Of a stretch of DNA of 64,000 nt, positions 1-48,071 are shown piece after piece. A program made the translations under genes and the position numbers. Each line of letters opens with the position of its first letter. Position 1 is the stretch's first letter. This DNA comes from Elephas maximus indicus (lineage: Eukaryota; Chordata; Mammalia; Proboscidea; Elephantidae): positions 71,688,001-71,752,000 of the forward strand of contig NC_064838.1 of NCBI RefSeq assembly GCF_024166365.1. Direction: 5' to 3'. Under the pieces are notes generated by a model that made no database searches, had not been told where the DNA came from, and worked only from the letters and a program-made list of their open reading frames with translations.

Positions 1-1992
<1,992 letters not shown>

Positions 1993-2068
1993 AGGAGAGC
2001 CACCTCCTCCCAGTAACGCCCCTGGAGAGGAACTTGGCGGCCTCGCTCGCCTGCACACACTCGCGCAC

Positions 2069-2077
2069 TCAGGCCAT
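2069..2077 (-). other. Minimal two-codon upstream ORF (Met-Ala-stop)
   Basis: On the coding strand ACG-ATG-GCC-TGA gives an ATG with A at -3 and G at +4, an optimal Kozak context, followed by one alanine codon and a stop. It lies about 170 bases upstream of the MAGI1 ATG. If the transcript includes it, it could hold back scanning ribosomes. Confidence 0.4.
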
Positions 2078-2218
2078 CGTCAAACAAACTTTCTGGGCTT
2101 CCCCACCGAGCCTGCACGGGCGCCCGCGCGCTTTGTTTGCGTTCCGGTGCCTCTCGGTCCACGTCCGGGCGCCCGATCGCGCTCGCTCGGACCAGAGTCC
2201 ACTCTACGCCGCTCCGGG

Positions 2219-2272
2219 TTTTTTTTTGGTTTTTTTTTTTTTTCCTTCCTTCCTTTCTTTCTTGCCTTTTAG
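2219..2272 (+). other. Polypyrimidine tract ending in AG
   Basis: The plus strand has about 50 bases of T/C-rich sequence ending CTTTTAG, followed by AAATGCGG. It looks like a strong 3' splice acceptor on the antisense strand, or simply a purine-rich stretch in the MAGI1 5' region. No matching antisense exon can be shown. Confidence 0.3.
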
Positions 2273-2530
2273 AAATGCGGAGCCTCCTCCTTGCCTCCCG
2301 CCCGGCTCGTCCTTCCTCGCTGGCCGGCTGCTCCCGAGGTGGGGCAAGCCCTGCCAGCCCAGTTGCAGGGAGCCCTGGAGACGCGGCGGCGCAGCGGCGC
2401 TGAGGGGGAGGACAGCAGGGAAGTGCCCGCGGCCCCTTTAAGCAGATACAAAGGCTCGGCTTGTTTTGTTACATTTCATTCTATTCCGCGCCGCCGAGCG
2501 CAGCGAAGCGGCCGGCGGGAGGAGACGCGC

Positions 2531-2540
2531 GCGCATGCGC
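2531..2540. promoter_or_regulatory. NRF1-type palindrome
   Basis: GCGCATGCGC is a perfect palindrome matching the core of the NRF1 consensus, a typical CpG-island promoter element. It sits about 630 bases upstream of the start codon. Confidence 0.6.
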
Positions 2541-2596
2541 CCCGCGGCCGCCTGCCATCCGGCCCGCCCCGCCTCTCCTTCCCTGAGCGAAAGAGT

Positions 2597-2615
2597 CCAA
2601 CGGGCTTCCCGTTGG
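2597..2615. promoter_or_regulatory. Inverted CCAACGGG/CCCGTTGG dyad
   Basis: Two perfect 8-bp arms are separated by CTT. Each arm contains CAACGG, fitting the MYB-type YAAC(G/T)G core, so two sites face each other. Binding is inferred only from the motif. Confidence 0.45.
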
Positions 2616-2728
2616 GTCCTAAAGCCGAGCCTGAGAGCAGCCGACTGCCGCCCTCCTCCCCTTCGCACACCGCTGAGCGTCCTCCTCCTTTTCTTTCCGA
2701 GGCGTAGACCCAGCAGCTCCTTTTAGGG

Positions 2729-2784
2729 TTCAGGTTAAAGGATGGTAATTCGCCTCCTACTTTCCAGAACTTAAAAAATATATA
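2729..2784 (+). repeat. Copy A of a 55-bp diverged direct repeat
   Basis: The segment from 'ttcaggttaaa' to 'agaacttaaaaaat' recurs at 4917-4970 in the same orientation with about 85% identity and a 3-base indel. The two copies bracket the minisatellite. Confidence 0.7.
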
Positions 2785-2885
2785 GGAAGAGCGCATGTAT
2801 TTCACTTAAACTGAAACTTTTGAAACATAAAGAATCTGACTTCGGGATTTTAAAACCGCTTCAAACAGGTGGGGGTTGGGGAGGC

Positions 2886-3862
2886 TCACACACTCCCCCC
2901 CGCGTTCACCCTCACCCCCGCGCTCACACACTCACCCCCGCGTTCACCCTCACCCCCGCGCTCACACACTCACCCCCGCGCTCACCCTCACCCCCGCGTT
3001 CACCCTCGCGCTCACGCTCACCCCCGCGCTCACCCTCACCCCCCCCGCGCTCACACACTCACCCTCGTGTTCACACTCACCCCCGCGCTCACCTTCACCC
3101 CCCCCGCGCTCACACACACACCCTCGCGCTCACACTCACCCCCGCGCTCACCCTCACCCCCCGCGCTCACACACTCACCCCCGCGCTCACCCTCACCCCC
3201 GCGTTCACCCTCGCGCTCACGCTCACCCCCGCGCTCACCCTCACCCCCCCGCGCTCACACACTCACCCTCGCGCTCACACTCACCCCCGCGCTCACCCTC
3301 ACCCCCCCGCGCTCACACACTCACCCTCGCGCTCACACTCACCCCCGCGCTAACCCTCACCCCCCCCGCGCTCACACACTCACCCCCGCGCTCACCCTCA
3401 CCCCCGCGTTCACCCTCGCGCTCACACTCACCCCCGCGCTAACCCTCACCCCCCCGCGCTCACACACACACCCTCGCACTCACACTCACCCCCAAGTTCA
3501 CGCTCACCCTCACCGCCGCGCTCACCCTCATCCCAGCTCCCACCCTCACCCCAGCTCCCACCCTCACCCCCGCGCTCACCCTCACCCCGGCGCTCACCCT
3601 CGCGCTCACTCACCCCCGCGCTCACACATTCCCCCCCGGGCTCACACTCACCCCCGCGCTCACACACTCACCCTCGCGCTCACACTCACCCCCGCGCTCA
3701 CACTCACCCCCGCTTTCACACACCCTCGCGCTCACACTCACCCCCGCTCTCACACTCACCCCCGCGTTCACTTTCACCCTCACCGCCGCGCTCACCCCCG
3801 CGTTCACACTCTCCCCCCGCGCTCACACACTCACCCTTGCGCTCACACTCACGCACTCACGC
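2886..3862. repeat. CpG-rich minisatellite with 205-bp higher-order period
   Basis: About 1 kb is built from variants of CTCACCCCCGCG, CTCACCCTCACC and CTCACACACTCACC. The rare variant 'gcgttcaccctcgcgctcac' recurs at 2996, 3201 and 3406, exactly 205 bp apart, and units 2996-3200 and 3201-3405 align along their whole length. Within them a 57-58-bp subunit recurs (for example 3256 and 3314). The third unit decays after about 100 bp and the right part is irregular. The minus strand (MAGI1 sense) is G-rich with GGGGGTGAGGG runs. All forward frames translate to His/Pro/Arg/Thr/Ser repeats and are not genes. Confidence 0.95.
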
Positions 3863-4689
3863 TGGCCCTAAGCCTCCTGCCGCCCTCGCCTGTGGCTGTG
3901 GATCACCTAGCCCGCTGTGTCCGCCCCCGACACTCCCAGCCAATTTCCCTCTAAACCCCTGAGACCCCCGGGAGGCGCGCCCTTGCTCCCCGCCGCCGTG
4001 TGCCCGCGGTTTCGCGTTCTGGCGGGGGATCTGCCAGGATCCCGGGAGCTACCAATCTGGGATCCCTGTGAGCCTCGCACGCCCCCATACGCCGTTAAAC
4101 TTTGGAGCCAACGTCATAGGACACAGGGAAAAATACAGGCGAGGGAGAGAAGCCCAGGGGCTGGAGGGGTTCGGACCTCCAACCCTCGTTTAAATGGCAT
4201 CTAGCTTTTTAACTGTCCTTCCAGAAGAGACTTCTGGAGTCTGTCATTTGCCCTGGACTCAAGGTACTGGCGGAGCCGGGAAGCCTGGGGACCCGCCCCG
4301 AGGCCAGGAGATAAGGATCGCCACGGAGTCTGGGGCATAGGCGCGCAGCCGCCACCTCTCAGAATTCGAGGCCCCAGGTCGCTCCACCTCGGGAGCCGCC
4401 CAGAGGCGGGGAGAGCGTGTGTCTGTCCGGTGAGGTTACAGAACCAGCTCGGCCGCAGGCAGGAGAAACACAGTCGCCACGAAGGCTGCCCTATCCAAAT
4501 ACTCCCTTGATGGGCCTGGGCGGTTAAGGACTTTCCCAAGCGGTTTCTTTTTCCTTTTAATGATTTATAACTTGATTATTCATCTTTAGTCACAGGAGAG
4601 AGTCCAAATGCTAAATAAGGGAGGTGAGTTGAGGGGACTGAGAGAGTGGTATGCCCCAGGGGTCAGGTTGAGAGCTGGGCTCCGGAGTG
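3863..4689. other. Upstream shoulder of the MAGI1 CpG island
   Basis: GC-rich, apparently unique DNA with scattered CpGs, falling to AT-rich sequence from about 4550. No gene is seen; it may carry distal promoter elements. Confidence 0.5.
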
Positions 4690-4890: not shown

Positions 4891-4916
4891 GAAAGGGAAA
4901 GGAATTCATTTGAGGT

Positions 4917-4970
4917 TTCAGGTTAAATGATGATAATTCATTTACTTTCTAGAACTTAAAAAATGTGTAA
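4917..4970 (+). repeat. Copy B of a 55-bp diverged direct repeat
   Basis: Pairs with 2729-2784 (see that entry). It follows directly on the MIR tail. Confidence 0.7.
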
Positions 4971-5022
4971 ACATATATTTAAATATCTTAAAGCACTTTT
5001 TTAGGATTCTATTTTATTATAG

Positions 5023-5172
5023 GGAGCCCTGGTGGCACAGGGGTTAAGAGATTTGCTGCTGACCAAAAGGTCAAATACACCAGCTGCTCCTTCGAAGCCC
5101 TATGGGGCAGTTCTGTTCTGTCCTATAGGGTCGCTATGAGTTGGGATTGACTTGAAGGCAATGGGTTTTATT
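5023..5172 (+). mobile_element. AfroSINE, short type
   Basis: Starts 'gagccctggtggcacag', carries 'ctatggggcagttctg' and ends 'aaggcaatgggttt'. The tRNA-derived head and RTE-like tail are both present. Confidence 0.92.
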
Positions 5173-6430: not shown

Positions 6431-6600
6431 CAGAAAAATGCACATTTTCACCTCCCATGTTAGAGGGGAATCCCAGATTACCTTACAAATTACTAGTAAG
6501 CTTGATCCTGCGGGTTCCGCCCACCCCCTCCCCCACTCCATAGTCCAGTAAAGACTGATTGCTAGCTAGGAATTCCTCCACCTCCCTAGAATCAGCACCT

Positions 6601-6744
6601 CTGGACTCCCGCCCCTGCATGGGTAGTCTAGGGGCTGTGCAGGGCCATCTGGACTCCCGCCCCTGCATGGGTAGTCTAGGGGCTGTGCAGGGCCATCTGG
6701 ACTCCCGCCCCTGCATGGGTAGTCTAGGGGCTGTGCAGGGCCAG
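6601..6744. repeat. 48-bp tandem repeat, three copies
   Basis: Units start at 6601, 6649 and 6697 and are identical except for the last base of unit 3. Forty-eight is divisible by three, so both strands keep an open frame with a 16-residue period. The sequence around the array is not repeated and shows no exon features. Confidence 0.97.
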
Positions 6745-35738: not shown

Positions 35739-37825
35739 GTTGTTGTTGTTAGGTGCCGTCAAGTGGGTTCCAACTCATAGCGACCGAATGCACAACAGAT
35801 GAAACACTGCCTGGTCCTGCGCCATCCGCACAATTGCTGCTGCGCTTGAGCTCATTGTTGCAGCCACTGTGTCAATCCACCCACTGAGGGTCTTCCTCTT
35901 TTCTGCTGACCCTGTACTTGGCCAAGCACGATGTCCATCTCCAGGGACTGATCCCTCCTGACAACATGTCCAAGTATGTGAGATGCAATCTAGCCATCCT
36001 TGCTTCTAAAGGAACTTTCTGGTTGTACTTCCTCCAAGAAAGATTTGTTCATTCTTTTGGCAGTCCACGGTATATTCAATATTCTTCGCCAACACCAAAA
36101 TTCAAAAGTGTCAGTTCTTCTTTGGTCTTCCTTATTCATTATCCAGCTTTCACATGCATATGATGCGATTGAAAACACCATGGCTTAGGTCAGGTGTACC
36201 TTAGTCTTCAAGGTGACATCTTTGCTTTTCAACACTTTAAAGAGGTCCTTTGCAGCAGATTTGCCCAGTGCAATGCGTCTTTTGATTTCTTGACTGCTGC
36301 TTCCGTGGCTGTTGATTGTGGATCCAAGTAAAATGAAAAATCCTTAACAACCTCAATCTTTTCTCTGTTTGTCATGATGTTGCTCATTGGTCTGGTTGTG
36401 AGGATTTTTGTTTTCTTTATGTTGAGGTGCAATCCATACCGAAGGCTATGGTCTTTGATCTTCGTTAGTAAGTGCTTCAAGTCCTTTTCAGTTTCAGCAA
36501 GCAAGCTTCTGTCATCTGGATAATGCCGGTTGTTAATGAGTTTTCCTCCAATCCTGATGCCCCGTTCTTCTTCATATAGTTCAGCTTCTCGGATTATTTG
36601 CTCAGCATACAGATTGAATAGGTATGGTGAAAGGATACAACCCTGACACACACCTTTCCTGACTTTAAACCAATCAGCATCCCCTTGTTCTGTCCGGTCA
36701 ACTGCCTTTTGATCTATGTAAAGGTTCCTCATGAGCACAATTAAATGTTCTGGAATTCCCATTCTTTGCAATGTTATCCATAATTTGTTATGATCCACAC
36801 AGTCGAATGCCTTTGCATAGTCAATAAAACACAGGTAAACATCCTTCTGGTATTCTCTGCTTTTAGCCAGGATCCATCTGACATCAGTAATGATATACCT
36901 GGTTCCACATCCTCTTCTGAAACCGGCCTGAATTTCTGGCAGTTCCCTGTCGATATACTGCTGTAGCCATTTTGGAATGATCTTCAGCAAAATTTTGCTT
37001 GCATGTGATGTTAATGATATTGTTGGATAATTTCCTCATTCGGACGGATCACCTTTCTTGGGAATATGCATAAATATGGATCTCTTCCAGTCAGTTGGCC
37101 AGGAAGCTGTCTTCCATACTTCTTGGCATAGATGAGTGAGCACCTCCAGCACTGCATCTGTTTGTTGAAACATCTCAATTGATTTTCCATCAATTCCTGG
37201 AGCCTTGTTTTTCGCCAATGCCTTCAGAGCAGCTTGCACTTCTTCCTTCAGTACCATCAGTTCCTGATCATATGCCACCTCTTGAAATGGTTGAACATTG
37301 ACTAATTCTTTTTGGTATAATGTCTCTGTATATTTCCTCCATCTTCTTTTGATGTTTCCTGCATCGTTTAATATTTTCCCCATGGAATCCTTCACTATTG
37401 CAACTCGAGGCTTGAATTTTTTCTTCAGTTCTTTCAGCTTGAGAAATGCCGAGCGTGTTCTTCCCTTTTGGTTTTCCATATCCAGCTCTTTGCACATGTC
37501 GTTATGATACTTTCCTTTGTCTTCTTGAGCCGCCCTTTGAAATTTTCTGTTCAGTTCTTTTACTTCATCAATTCTTCCTTTTGCTTTAGCTGCTCGATGC
37601 TCAAATGCAAGTTTCAGAGTCTCCTCTGACATCCGTCTTGGTCTTTTCTTTCTTTCCTGTCTTTTCAATGACCTCTTGCTTTCTTCATGTATGAAGTCCT
37701 TGATATCATTCCACAACTCGTCTGGTCTTCGGTCAGTAACGTTCAATGCATCAAGACTATTCTTGAGATGGTTTCTAAATTCAGGTGGGATGTACTCAAG
37801 GTTACATTTTGGCTCCCGTGGACTT
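35739..37825 (-). mobile_element. RTE (BovB-like) LINE, 2.1 kb, 5'-truncated
   Basis: The poly-(GTT) 3' end is at 35739-35751, next to the tail 'ggtgccgtcaagtgggttcc'. Duplicates cttcctct at 35731-35738 and 37826-37833 bound it. The ORF is described separately. It lacks the endonuclease N-terminus present in complete RTEs. Confidence 0.93.
35885..37825 (-). pseudogene. RTE reverse-transcriptase pseudogene
   Basis: Read from the right, a linker and then the reverse-transcriptase domain can be followed: LKALAKNKAPGIDG at about 37195, IPKKGDP near 37050, AKAFDCVDH near 36820, GVCQGCILSPYLFN near 36650. The catalytic box, YADD in active RTEs, reads YPDD at 36511-36522. A TGA at 37036-37038 interrupts the frame right after the IPKKGDP motif. 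Two extra A in 'aaaatgaaaaatcc' near 36330-36345 shift the frame; the C-terminal region (CESWIMNKEDQRR, WTAKRMNKS) continues in another frame and the last part in yet another. In active elements the protein copies RTE RNA, and probably AfroSINE RNA, into the genome; this copy cannot. Confidence 0.9.
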
Positions 37826-37851
37826 CTTCCTCTAGCTACTAGCAATTTAGA

Positions 37852-37975
37852 GAAGTGGTTCTCAAAAGCAGGTCCATAAACTGAGCCCCCTAGGAAGGTT
37901 GTGAAGAACACAGATGCCTGGAATCTACCCCTGCCAATTCTAATTCAGAAAGTCTAATGGATCTAATTTTACAAA
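37852..37975 (+). mobile_element. MER5A-like hAT-Charlie fragment
   Basis: 'agaagtggttctcaaaagca' is the typical terminal region; then 'cagatgcctggaatctaccc'. Confidence 0.65.
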
Positions 37976-44265: not shown

Positions 44266-47200
44266 ATACAATATTTCTCCTTTTGCAACTGCCTAATTTA
44301 ACTCAGCATAATGCTTTCCAGATTCCTCCATGTTATGAAATGTTTCACAGATTCATCACTGTTCTTTATCGATGTGTAGTATTCCCTTGTGTGAATACAC
44401 CATAATTTATTTATCCATTCATCTGTTGATGGTCACCTTGGTTGCTTCCATCTTTTTGCTTTTGTAAACAGTGCTGCAGTGAACATGGGTGTGCATATAT
44501 CAGTTTGCGGAAAGGCTCTTATTTCTCTAGGGTATATTCCAAGGAAGGGGATTGCTGGATCCTATGGTAGTTCTATTTCTAGCTTTTTAAGGAAGCGCCA
44601 AATTGATTTCCAAAGTGGTTGTACTGTTTTACATTCCCACCAGCAGCGTGTAAGTGTTTCAGTCTCTCCACAACCTCCCCAACATTAATTAGTTTGTGTT
44701 TTTTGGATTAATGCCAGCCTTTTTGGAGTGAGATGAAATCTCATTGTAGTTTTGATTTCCATTTCTCTAATGGCTAATGATTGTGAGCGTTTCCTCATGT
44801 ATCTGTTAGCTACCTGAATGTCTTCTTTAGTGAAGTATCTGTTTACATCTTTTGCCCATTTTTTAATTGGGTTATTTGACTTTTTGCAGTTGAGTTTTTG
44901 CAGTATCCTGTAGATTTTAGAGATCAGATGCTGATCAGAAGTGTCATAGCTAAAAACGTTTTCCCAGTCTGTAGGTAGTCTTTTTACTCTTTTGGTGAAG
45001 TCTTAGGATGAGCATAGGTGTTTGATTTTTAGGAGCTGCCAGTTATCTAGTTTTTCTTCTGCATTGTTAGTAATGTTTTGTATACTGTTTTTTTTTCATT
45101 AGGGCTCAAAACATTGTCCCTATTTTTTCTTCCATGATCTTTATCGTTTTAGATTTTATATTTAGGTCTTTGATCCATTTTGAGTTAGTTTTTGTGCATG
45201 GAGTGAGGTATGGGTCTTGTTTCATTTTTTTGCAGATGGATATCCAGTTATGCCAGCACCATTTGTTAAAAAGACTGTCTTTTCGCCATTTAACTGTTTT
45301 GGGGCCTTTGTCAAATATCAACTGCTCATGCATGGATGGATTTATGTCTGGATTCTCAATTCCGTTCCATTGGTCCATGTATCTGTTGTTGTACCAGTAC
45401 CAGGCTGTTTTGACTACTGTGGTTGCAAATAGGTTCTAAAATCAGGTAAAGTAAGGCCTCCCACTTTGTTCTTCTTTTTCAGTAACGCCTTATTTATCCG
45501 GGGCCTCTTTCCCTTCCATATGAAGTTGGTGATTTGTTTCTCCATCTCATTAAAGAATGCCCTTGGGATTTGGATCGGAATTGCATTAAATGTATAGATC
45601 GCTTTTGGTAGAATAGACATTTTTATAATGTTAAGTCTTCCTATTCATGAGCAAGGTATGTTCTTCCACTTATGTAAGTCTCTTTTGGTTTCTTGCAGAA
45701 GTGTACTACAGTTTTCTTTGTGTATGTCTTTTATATCTCTGGTAAGATTTATTCCTAAGTATTTTATCTTCTTGGGGGCTACTGTAAATGGCATTGATTT
45801 GGTGATTTCCTCTTCAATGTTCTTTTTGTTGGTGTAGAGGAATCCAACTGATTTTTGTGTGTTTAGAGGAATCCAACTGATTTTTGTATGTTCATCTTGT
45901 ATCCCGATACTCTGTTCAACTCTTCTATTAGTTTCAGTAGTTTTCCAGAGGATTCCTTAGGGTTTTCTGTGTATAAGATCATGTCATCTGCAAATAGAGA
46001 TACTTTTACTTCTTCCATGCCAATCTGGATGCCCTTTATTTCTTTATCTAGCCTAATTGCTCTGGCTAGGACTTCCAGCACTATGTTGAAAAAGAGTGGT
46101 GATAAAGGGCATCCTTGTCTGGTTCCCGATCTCAGTGGGAATGTTTTCAGGCTCTCTCCATTTAGGGTGATGTTGCCTGTTGGCTTTGTATAAATGCCCT
46201 TTCTTATGTTGAGAAATTTTCCTTCTATTCCTATTTTGCTGAGAGTTTTTATCATGAATGAGTGTTGAACTTTGTCAAATGCCTTTTCTGCATCAATTGA
46301 TAAAATCATGTGATTCTTGTCTTTCGTTTTCTTTGTATGATGGATTACATTAATTGTTTTTCTAATGTTGAACCATCCCTGCATACCTCGTATGAATCCC
46401 ACTTGGTCATGGTGAATTATTTTTTTGATATGTTGTTGAATTCTATTGGATAGAATTTTGTTGAGGATTTTTGCGTCTAAGTTCATGAGGGATATAGGTC
46501 TATAATTTTCTTGTGGTGCCTTTACCTGGTTTTGGAATCAGGGATATGGTGGCTTCATAGAATGAGTTTGGTAGTATTCCATCCTTTTCTATGCTCTGAA
46601 ATATCTTTAGTAGTAGTGGTGTTAACTCTTCTCTGAAAGTTTGGTAGAACTCTGCAGCAAAGCCTTCAGGACCAGGGCTTTTTTTTGCTGGAATTTTTTG
46701 ATTACCTTTTCAATCTCTTCTTTTGTTATGGGTCTGTTTACTTGTTCTACCTTTCTGTTAGTTTAGGTAGGTAGTGTTTTTCTAGGGATTCATCCATTTC
46801 TTCTAGGTTTTCAAATTTGTTTGAGTATAGTTTTTCATAGTAATCTGATATGATTCTTTTAATTTCGGTTGGGCCTGTTGTAATATTGCCCCTCTCATTT
46901 CTTATTCGGGTTATTTGCTTCCTCTCCTGTTTTTCTTTTGTCAGTTAGGCCAATGGTTTATCAATTTTGTTGATTTTTTCAAAAAACCAGCTTTTGGTCT
47001 TGTTAATTCTTTCCGTTGTTTTTCTGTTTTCTATTTCATTTAGTTCAGCTCTAATTTTTATTATTTGTTTTCTTCTGGTGCCAGTGGGTTTCTTTTGTTG
47101 GTCTTTTTCTATTTGTTCAGGTTGTAGGGATAGTTCTTTGATTTTGGCCCTTTCTTCTTTTTGGATGTGTGCATTTATTGATATAAATTGGCCTCTGAGC

Positions 47201-48071
47201 ACCACTTTTGCTGTGTCCCAAAGGTTCTGATAGGAAGTGTATTCATTCTCGTTGGATTCTATGAATTTCTTTATTCCGTCCTTAATGTCTTCTATAATCC
47301 AGTCTTTTTTGAACAGGGTGTTGTTCACTTTCCAAGTGTTTGTTTTCTTTTCCCTGCTTTTCCTGTTATTGATTTCCACTTTTTTGGCCTTATAGTCAGA
47401 GAAGATGCTTTGTAATATTTCAGTGTTTTGGATTCTGCTAAGACTTGTTTTATGACCTAGTGTGTGGTCTATTCTAGAGAGTGTTCCACGTGCACTAGAA
47501 AAGAAAGTATACTTGGTTGCTGTTGGGTGGAGTGTTCTGTATATGTCTACGAGGTCAAGTTGGTTGACTGTGGCATTTAGATCTTCCATGTCTTTATTGA
47601 GCTTCTTTCTGGATGTCCTGTCCTTCACCAAAAGTGGTGTGTTGAAGTCTCCTACTATTATTGTGGAGCTGTCTATCTCACTTTTTCAATGCTGATAGAG
47701 GTTTTTTAATGGATCTCGCAGCCCTGTCATTGGGTGCATAAATATTTAATATGTTTATATCTTCTTGGTGTATTGTCCCTTTAATCATTATATAGTGTCC
47801 TTCCTTATCCTTTCTAATGGATTTAACTTTAAAGTCTATTTTGTCAGAAATTAATATTGCCACTCCTGTCTTTTTTTGATTGTTGTTTCCTTGATATATT
47901 TTTTTCCATCCTTTGAGTTTTAGTTTGTGTCTCTAAGATGTGTCTCTTGTAGGCAGCATATAGACAGATCTTGTTTTTAATCCATTCTGCAACTGTCTGT
48001 CTCTTTATTGGTGCATTTAGTCCATTTACATTCAGGGTAATTATGGATAGGTATGAATTTAGTGCTATCAT
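44266..48071 (-). pseudogene. L1 ORF2 pseudogene (endonuclease and reverse transcriptase)
   Basis: ORF2 begins at the ATG 48071-48069 (MIALNSYLSIITLNVNGLN, the endonuclease start). The APE-type endonuclease runs to about 47300 with frameshifts near 47865 and 47690, one at a T-run. The reverse-transcriptase domain is best preserved at 45863-46486: [28 protein letters not shown] and an intact FADD catalytic box (45983-45994). The cysteine-rich C-terminal part ends near 44266 after several stops. The protein in active L1s nicks DNA and primes reverse transcription of L1 RNA; this copy is split into at least five frames. Confidence 0.92.

Follow-up and report, generated by a model that had tools for sequence, protein, structure and literature searches.

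A nested, G-rich minisatellite array in the CpG island upstream of MAGI1 in Elephas maximus indicus

The stretch of elephant DNA analysed here (64,000 nucleotides, hereafter the window) carries on its minus strand a first coding exon (1593-1904, the exon end being set by eye), which begins with the ATG at 1904-1902 and encodes an N-terminal sequence of 104 amino acids. The best PDB match of the translation was the MAGI2 chain 7ykf_A (E 1.2e-20), and a search of the translation for Pfam families gave no match. From its likeness to the human sequence, we take the exon to be that of MAGI1 rather than of MAGI2 or MAGI3. A 400-bp sliding table places the exon in a CpG island (1000-4500, edges approximate) that also holds the probable core promoter and a tandem repeat array at 2884-3863. 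From about 1.0 to 4.6 kb of the window the CpG observed/expected ratio ranged over 0.58-1.59; past 5 kb it was 0.23. Relative to the MAGI1 ATG the array lies at -980 to -1959, so that its near edge is 980 bp upstream, in agreement with a preliminary description of the sequence that had put it about 1 kb from the start codon. The same description had taken the G-rich strand for the sense strand of MAGI1, and the minus-strand position of the exon, identified by its MAGI2 match, bears this out.

Pattern matching between exon 1 and the array revealed three GGGCGG boxes on the minus strand (2298, 2564 and 2648) and, at 2531-2540, the palindrome GCGCATGCGC, which we presume to be NRF1-like and which may mark the neighbourhood of the core promoter. 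Judged from the palindrome and the boxes at 2298-2653, the core promoter would lie some 230-590 bp below the array. This placement is a guess: minus-strand GGGCGG boxes are also found beyond the array (3880, 3921, 4293 and 4396), and a TATA-like match on the same strand (2778) is nearer to the array than the proposed site.

The plus strand of the array is C-rich. In the interval 2886-3862 there are 586 C, 151 A, 133 T and 107 G (60% C), and 99 CpGs with an observed/expected ratio of 1.54. Self-identity over this interval was 0.715 at a lag of 18 bp (mean 0.414 and maximum 0.471 in 500 first-order Markov resamples) and 0.548 at a lag of 205 bp, compared with a resample maximum of 0.469. The longest exact repeat inside the array was 93 bp, whereas none longer than 22 bp occurred in 200 resamples. 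Tandem Repeats Finder (TRF) reported a period of 18 with 52.5 copies at 2889-3852 and 74% matches. The repeat reported earlier at 2886-3862 is thus a continuous array, with edges at 2884 and 3863. Minisatellites consist of head-to-tail units of roughly 10-100 bp and span about 0.5-20 kb; the TRF period of 18 and the cutting into modules described below both give units arranged in this way.

Other identities of the repeat were considered, and a coding repeat, a structured RNA and contamination were rejected. A frame of 361 amino acids is open through the array on the plus strand (2869-3954), but it yielded no Pfam family and is open by composition, since the plus strand of the array contains two TAA and neither TAG nor TGA. 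No Rfam match reached the gathering score in the window, which speaks against a structured RNA. Contamination by prokaryotic or viral DNA is opposed by the presence of MAGI1 and SINEs in the same window, and a 25-base piece had no exact match in collections of viral sequences and genome contigs. In an SVA-like mobile element a VNTR is attached to retroelement ends and the whole recurs at other places; the array had no BLAST match elsewhere in the 64-kb window. Among the papers listed for MAGI1 paired with minisatellite, VNTR, tandem repeat plus CpG island, or G-quadruplex, no title or abstract opening describes a MAGI1 promoter repeat.

For analysis of the internal structure the array was cut after each CGCGCT-like hexamer, a pattern chosen by eye, which gave 54 modules, 20 of them 18 bp and 15 of them 20 bp long. 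A typical module is CACCCT-CACCCC-CGCGCT, so the 6-bp step noticed earlier is real. When modules were assigned to hand-set classes that ignored the length of C-runs, their order was xABAB aCDEFGEFGEB aCDEFGEFGEB aCGEFG, followed by 21 modules, 13 of which fitted no class. The longest repeated string comprised 11 modules; with the same hand-set classes, the maximum in 2000 permutations of module order was 5. Read from the gene outward, the array consists of a gene-proximal domain (2884-2982), in which a 23-bp edge module is followed by alternating 18- and 20-bp modules (a 38-bp dimer), two 205-bp higher-order units of the order a-C-D-E-F-G-E-F-G-E-B (unit 1, 2983-3187; unit 2, 3188-3392), a partial third unit of 106 bp (3393-3498) and a degenerate distal domain (3499-3863) whose 21 modules are 6-24 bp long.

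Units 1 and 2 match in 198 of 203 ungapped columns (5 mismatches, 97.5% identity outside gaps), and the 4 gap columns between them all lie within C-runs. The partial unit is identical to unit 2 at 99 of 106 positions; extending it to the full 205 bp costs 18 gap columns and 16 mismatches, and the register is lost. In a higher-order repeat, blocks of several different modules recur and resemble each other more closely than their modules do. Such a repeat exists here, as had been proposed, but module order supports only about 2.5 copies of it over 2983-3498, with the complete 11-module block present twice. TRF at period 205 counted 4.5 copies (2895-3797, 85% matches), of which the outer two are flanks counted in, unsupported by module order. 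Fifteen ungapped 205-nt 'copies' with 60-86% identity to the reference copy were rejected for counting because they represent slipped registers. The unit had also been described as built of 57-58-bp subunits; each full unit does contain two copies of a 58-59-bp triplet E-F-G, the partial unit has one, and the two triplets of unit 2 are identical across 58 bp, but the triplets fill just 116-118 of the 205 bp of a full unit.

The preliminary description had the 205-bp unit repeating exactly in phase at 2996, 3201 and 3406. This is correct for the landmark GCGTTCACCCTCGCGCTCAC, which begins at these three positions, i.e. every 205 bp, but not for the frames that it delimits: ungapped 205-bp frames starting there were 70% and 68% identical between neighbours and 55% identical between the outer pair. 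The E modules measure 21, 21 and 19 bp in unit 1 and 20, 20 and 21 bp in unit 2, differences that cancel, so that both units come to 205 bp. The exact phase is partly accidental, the product of cancelling indels in C-runs, and it may serve as a caution to readers of other arrays.

Differences in C-run length among otherwise similar modules could also be expected if the array were in part an assembly product in which collapse or mis-joining had falsified the copy number or the length of C-runs, and 365 of its 950 31-mers lie in repeats. However, the units carry private substitutions and no 94-mer is repeated within the array, so reads longer than about 100 bp could suffice to put the units in order. 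These two observations speak against a gross assembly error, and we hold even a partial one to be improbable.

Higher-order satellite and minisatellite arrays have nested units, a homogeneous centre and a degenerate edge, features that the MAGI1 array shares; it differs from such arrays in general in being very short (2.5 copies) and in lying in a promoter CpG island. The best in-array match scores of 60-bp pieces were 95-120 of 120 in 2944-3483, 68-98 in 3484-3843 and 93 for the proximal edge piece (2884-2943). Repeated slippage, together with unequal exchange or conversion, leaves a homogeneous centre and degenerate edges; with its homogeneous centre, degenerate distal third and lower-scoring proximal edge, the array fits exchange models. 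The array looks like an ordinary minisatellite that was recently homogenised, 'local' and 'recent' being judged from one array in one haplotype. We regard it as likely that it is a GC-rich minisatellite that grew locally, within the upstream portion of the CpG island of the MAGI1 promoter. The nested anatomy is observed, and from it we infer the events of growth. A C-rich seed with 6-bp steps would have given rise to 18- and 20-bp modules, slippage would have joined these into dimers of 38 bp and triplets of 58-59 bp, and the 205-bp block would have been copied in one or two larger events of unequal exchange or conversion. The presumed steps of growth are thus 6 bp, 18/20 bp, 38 and 58 bp, and finally 205 bp. 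As it stands, the array is a clear case of nested minisatellite growth within a CpG island.

Each unit had been called CpG-rich. This holds for most modules but not for every one: leaving aside the last two, incomplete modules, CpG was kept at its two usual places in 47 and 44 of 52. In a methylated germ line, where CpGs mutate at a roughly tenfold rate, CpG substitutions should be a clear majority. Of the 12 substitutions that separate aligned unit copies, 5 distinguish unit 1 from unit 2 and 7 distinguish unit 2 from the partial unit; CpG transitions account for one of the former and three of the latter, 4 in all, and one further substitution is a CpG transversion. As 22% of the bases of unit 2 lie in CpG, strong CpG decay is absent. 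The CpGs of the array may survive because the island holding it is little methylated, that is, probably hypomethylated in the germ line. With only 12 substitutions this inference is weak, and retention of CpG would also follow from recent copying alone.

The G-quadruplex (G4) potential ascribed earlier to the MAGI1-sense strand was evaluated by several rules. Motifs conforming to G3+N1-7 occurred 11 times on the minus strand of the window and not at all on the plus strand; ten of the 11 are within the array, on the MAGI1-sense strand, spanning 2895-3588 (2895-2919, 2973-3005, 3021-3046, 3178-3210, 3226-3250, 3284-3308, 3342-3367, 3383-3415, 3431-3455 and 3525-3588). They cover 315 bp of the array, compared with a mean of 77 bp in dinucleotide shuffles, and none of 300 shuffles reached this value, hence sets of four tracts of three or more Gs with short loops are present above chance. 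When loops of up to 15 were allowed, the G3+ rule gave a single motif of 942 bp (2895-3836), again in 0 of 300 shuffles. Other rules pointed the opposite way: under G3+N1-12, 15 of 300 shuffles matched the coverage, and under G2+N1-7 coverage (429 bp) was below the shuffle mean (646 bp) and was reached by all 300. The mean G4Hunter score mostly reflects composition (1.31 in the array vs 1.19 in shuffles). The sequence GGGGGTGAGGG is present in 12 copies on the MAGI1-sense strand of the array and nowhere else in the window.

Folding energies were calculated with parameters for RNA, not DNA. Permitting G4s lowered the energy of the sense strand of unit 2 from -54.5 to -76.5 kcal/mol, that of 3226-3250 from -1.7 to -9.6 kcal/mol and that of 3525-3588 from -6.2 to -29.5 kcal/mol, whereas the energy of 3178-3210 was unchanged, i.e. 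a G4 was not favoured there. In 3226-3250 and similar motifs one run of 7-8 Gs must be counted as two tracts, therefore these motifs depend on run lengths that sequencing may misread. When the G-rich strand of unit 2 was folded as DNA with G4 terms left out, short GCGC hairpins resulted (z -2.34, equalled by 3 of 200 shuffles). The earlier suggestion of G4 potential is thus sustained by the strict G3+N1-7 rule, while looser rules and RNA folding gave a mixed picture; as a matter of prediction, the G4 potential of the array is real. If the duplex were opened, the MAGI1-sense strand could form intramolecular G-quadruplexes and the opposite strand perhaps i-motifs.

As a G-rich tandem repeat that lies upstream of a gene and could, by prediction, form G4s and i-motifs, the array resembles the insulin-linked polymorphic region (ILPR), the VNTR of the INS promoter. 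The ILPR has 14-bp units, is 363 bp from the start site, and has known length alleles and effects in reporters (PMC11336075); the MAGI1 array, in contrast, consists of 18/20-bp CpG-bearing units with a 205-bp higher order and was seen in one haplotype. By analogy, the length of the array and its folding into G4s or i-motifs might set MAGI1 transcription. The motifs on the MAGI1-sense strand and the location within the promoter CpG island would be consistent with such a switch, as would reporter data reported for four ILPR variants, in which high glucose elicited a response from the two that fold into G4 and i-motif but not from the two non-folders (PMC11336075). However, the same source reports that the variants were alike at low glucose, and the edge of the MAGI1 array stands 980 bp away from the ATG and about 230-590 bp from the guessed core promoter at 2298-2653. 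Of 10,264 human VNTRs that were genotyped, 1,817 were excluded as monomorphic and 163 showed an association with expression (eVNTRs); a VNTR no more than 100 bp away from a start site was reported to be twice as likely as others to be an eVNTR (PMC8024321). On balance we consider a dedicated switch of this kind unlikely.

The array also shares with the dodecamer of the CSTB promoter, the repeat of Unverricht-Lundborg disease, the character of a CpG-bearing, C-rich promoter repeat of 12-bp scale. The dodecamer is reported in two to three copies in healthy people and in 30-80 copies, with reduced expression, in patients (PMC9655992); the MAGI1 array, by comparison, is already long. Both the ILPR and the CSTB repeat, as reported, indicate that promoter repeats can matter (PMC11336075, PMC9655992). 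For a locally grown minisatellite, the effect to be expected on MAGI1 is a weak, length-dependent shift in promoter openness without dedicated function, and the influence of the array would be at most modest. If it proved to be variable and active, it would offer a naturally occurring set of promoter G4 arrays with which to study how repeat length tunes a gene for a junction scaffold and tumour suppressor.

Alternatively, the array could offer clustered binding sites to a protein. It contains 56 copies of TCACCC, which reads GGGTGA on the sense strand, and these might recruit or titrate a factor of the zinc-finger or nuclear-receptor type; GGGTGA is similar to a half-site of nuclear receptors, and among the 55 spacings 18 bp (17 times), 12 bp (13 times) and 6 bp (10 times) recur. 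These spacings are, however, merely the periods of the repeat, and strict half-sites (GGTCA/TGACC) are missing from the array, so we give this interpretation little credence. Half-sites do figure in the human gene: its promoter has been reported to contain five putative oestrogen-receptor half-sites, identified bioinformatically, between -1009 and -1866 from the ATG, and oestradiol raises MAGI1 mRNA in MCF7 cells (PMC7016640). The same distances from the ATG correspond here to 2913-3770, wholly within the array, and a pattern search of 1905-4660 found no GGTCA or TGACC. If a lineage-specific minisatellite had taken over the region 1 to 2 kb upstream of MAGI1 and displaced the half-sites, control of the gene would have been rewired from a hormone response to a length-variable G4 element. 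We think this very improbable; that the human distances fall in the array may be mere spacing, the comparison being one of distance without alignment to the human sequence.

Several other features were found in the window. A direct repeat of 62 bp (2718-2779 and 4906-4964, spacing 2.19 kb) brackets the array; its copies are 80.6% identical (E about 1e-10), and their local score was 66, whereas 2000 Markov resamples did not exceed 40. It could have arisen long ago by local duplication, or its two halves could be copies of some unlisted element. BLAST matched the SINE at 5020-5170, which we take to be an AfroSINE, to 18 other places in the window, on both strands and with 71-92% identity; if rightly named, these copies point to an afrothere. 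AfroSINEs are reported to be specific to Afrotheria (PMC11292518). Reverse-transcriptase fragments (RVT_1) were detected on the minus strand at 36232-36990 (E 2.6e-26) and 45866-46486 (E 5e-36) and are probably derived from LINE-1; the frames beside them (37039-37911 and 46948-47631) matched no Pfam family. A strong excess of T over A is seen at 44-50 kb. Finally, a second minisatellite is located 2.7 kb farther upstream of MAGI1 at 6600-6743, where three exact copies of a 48-bp unit follow each other without interruption, and it is apparently very young.
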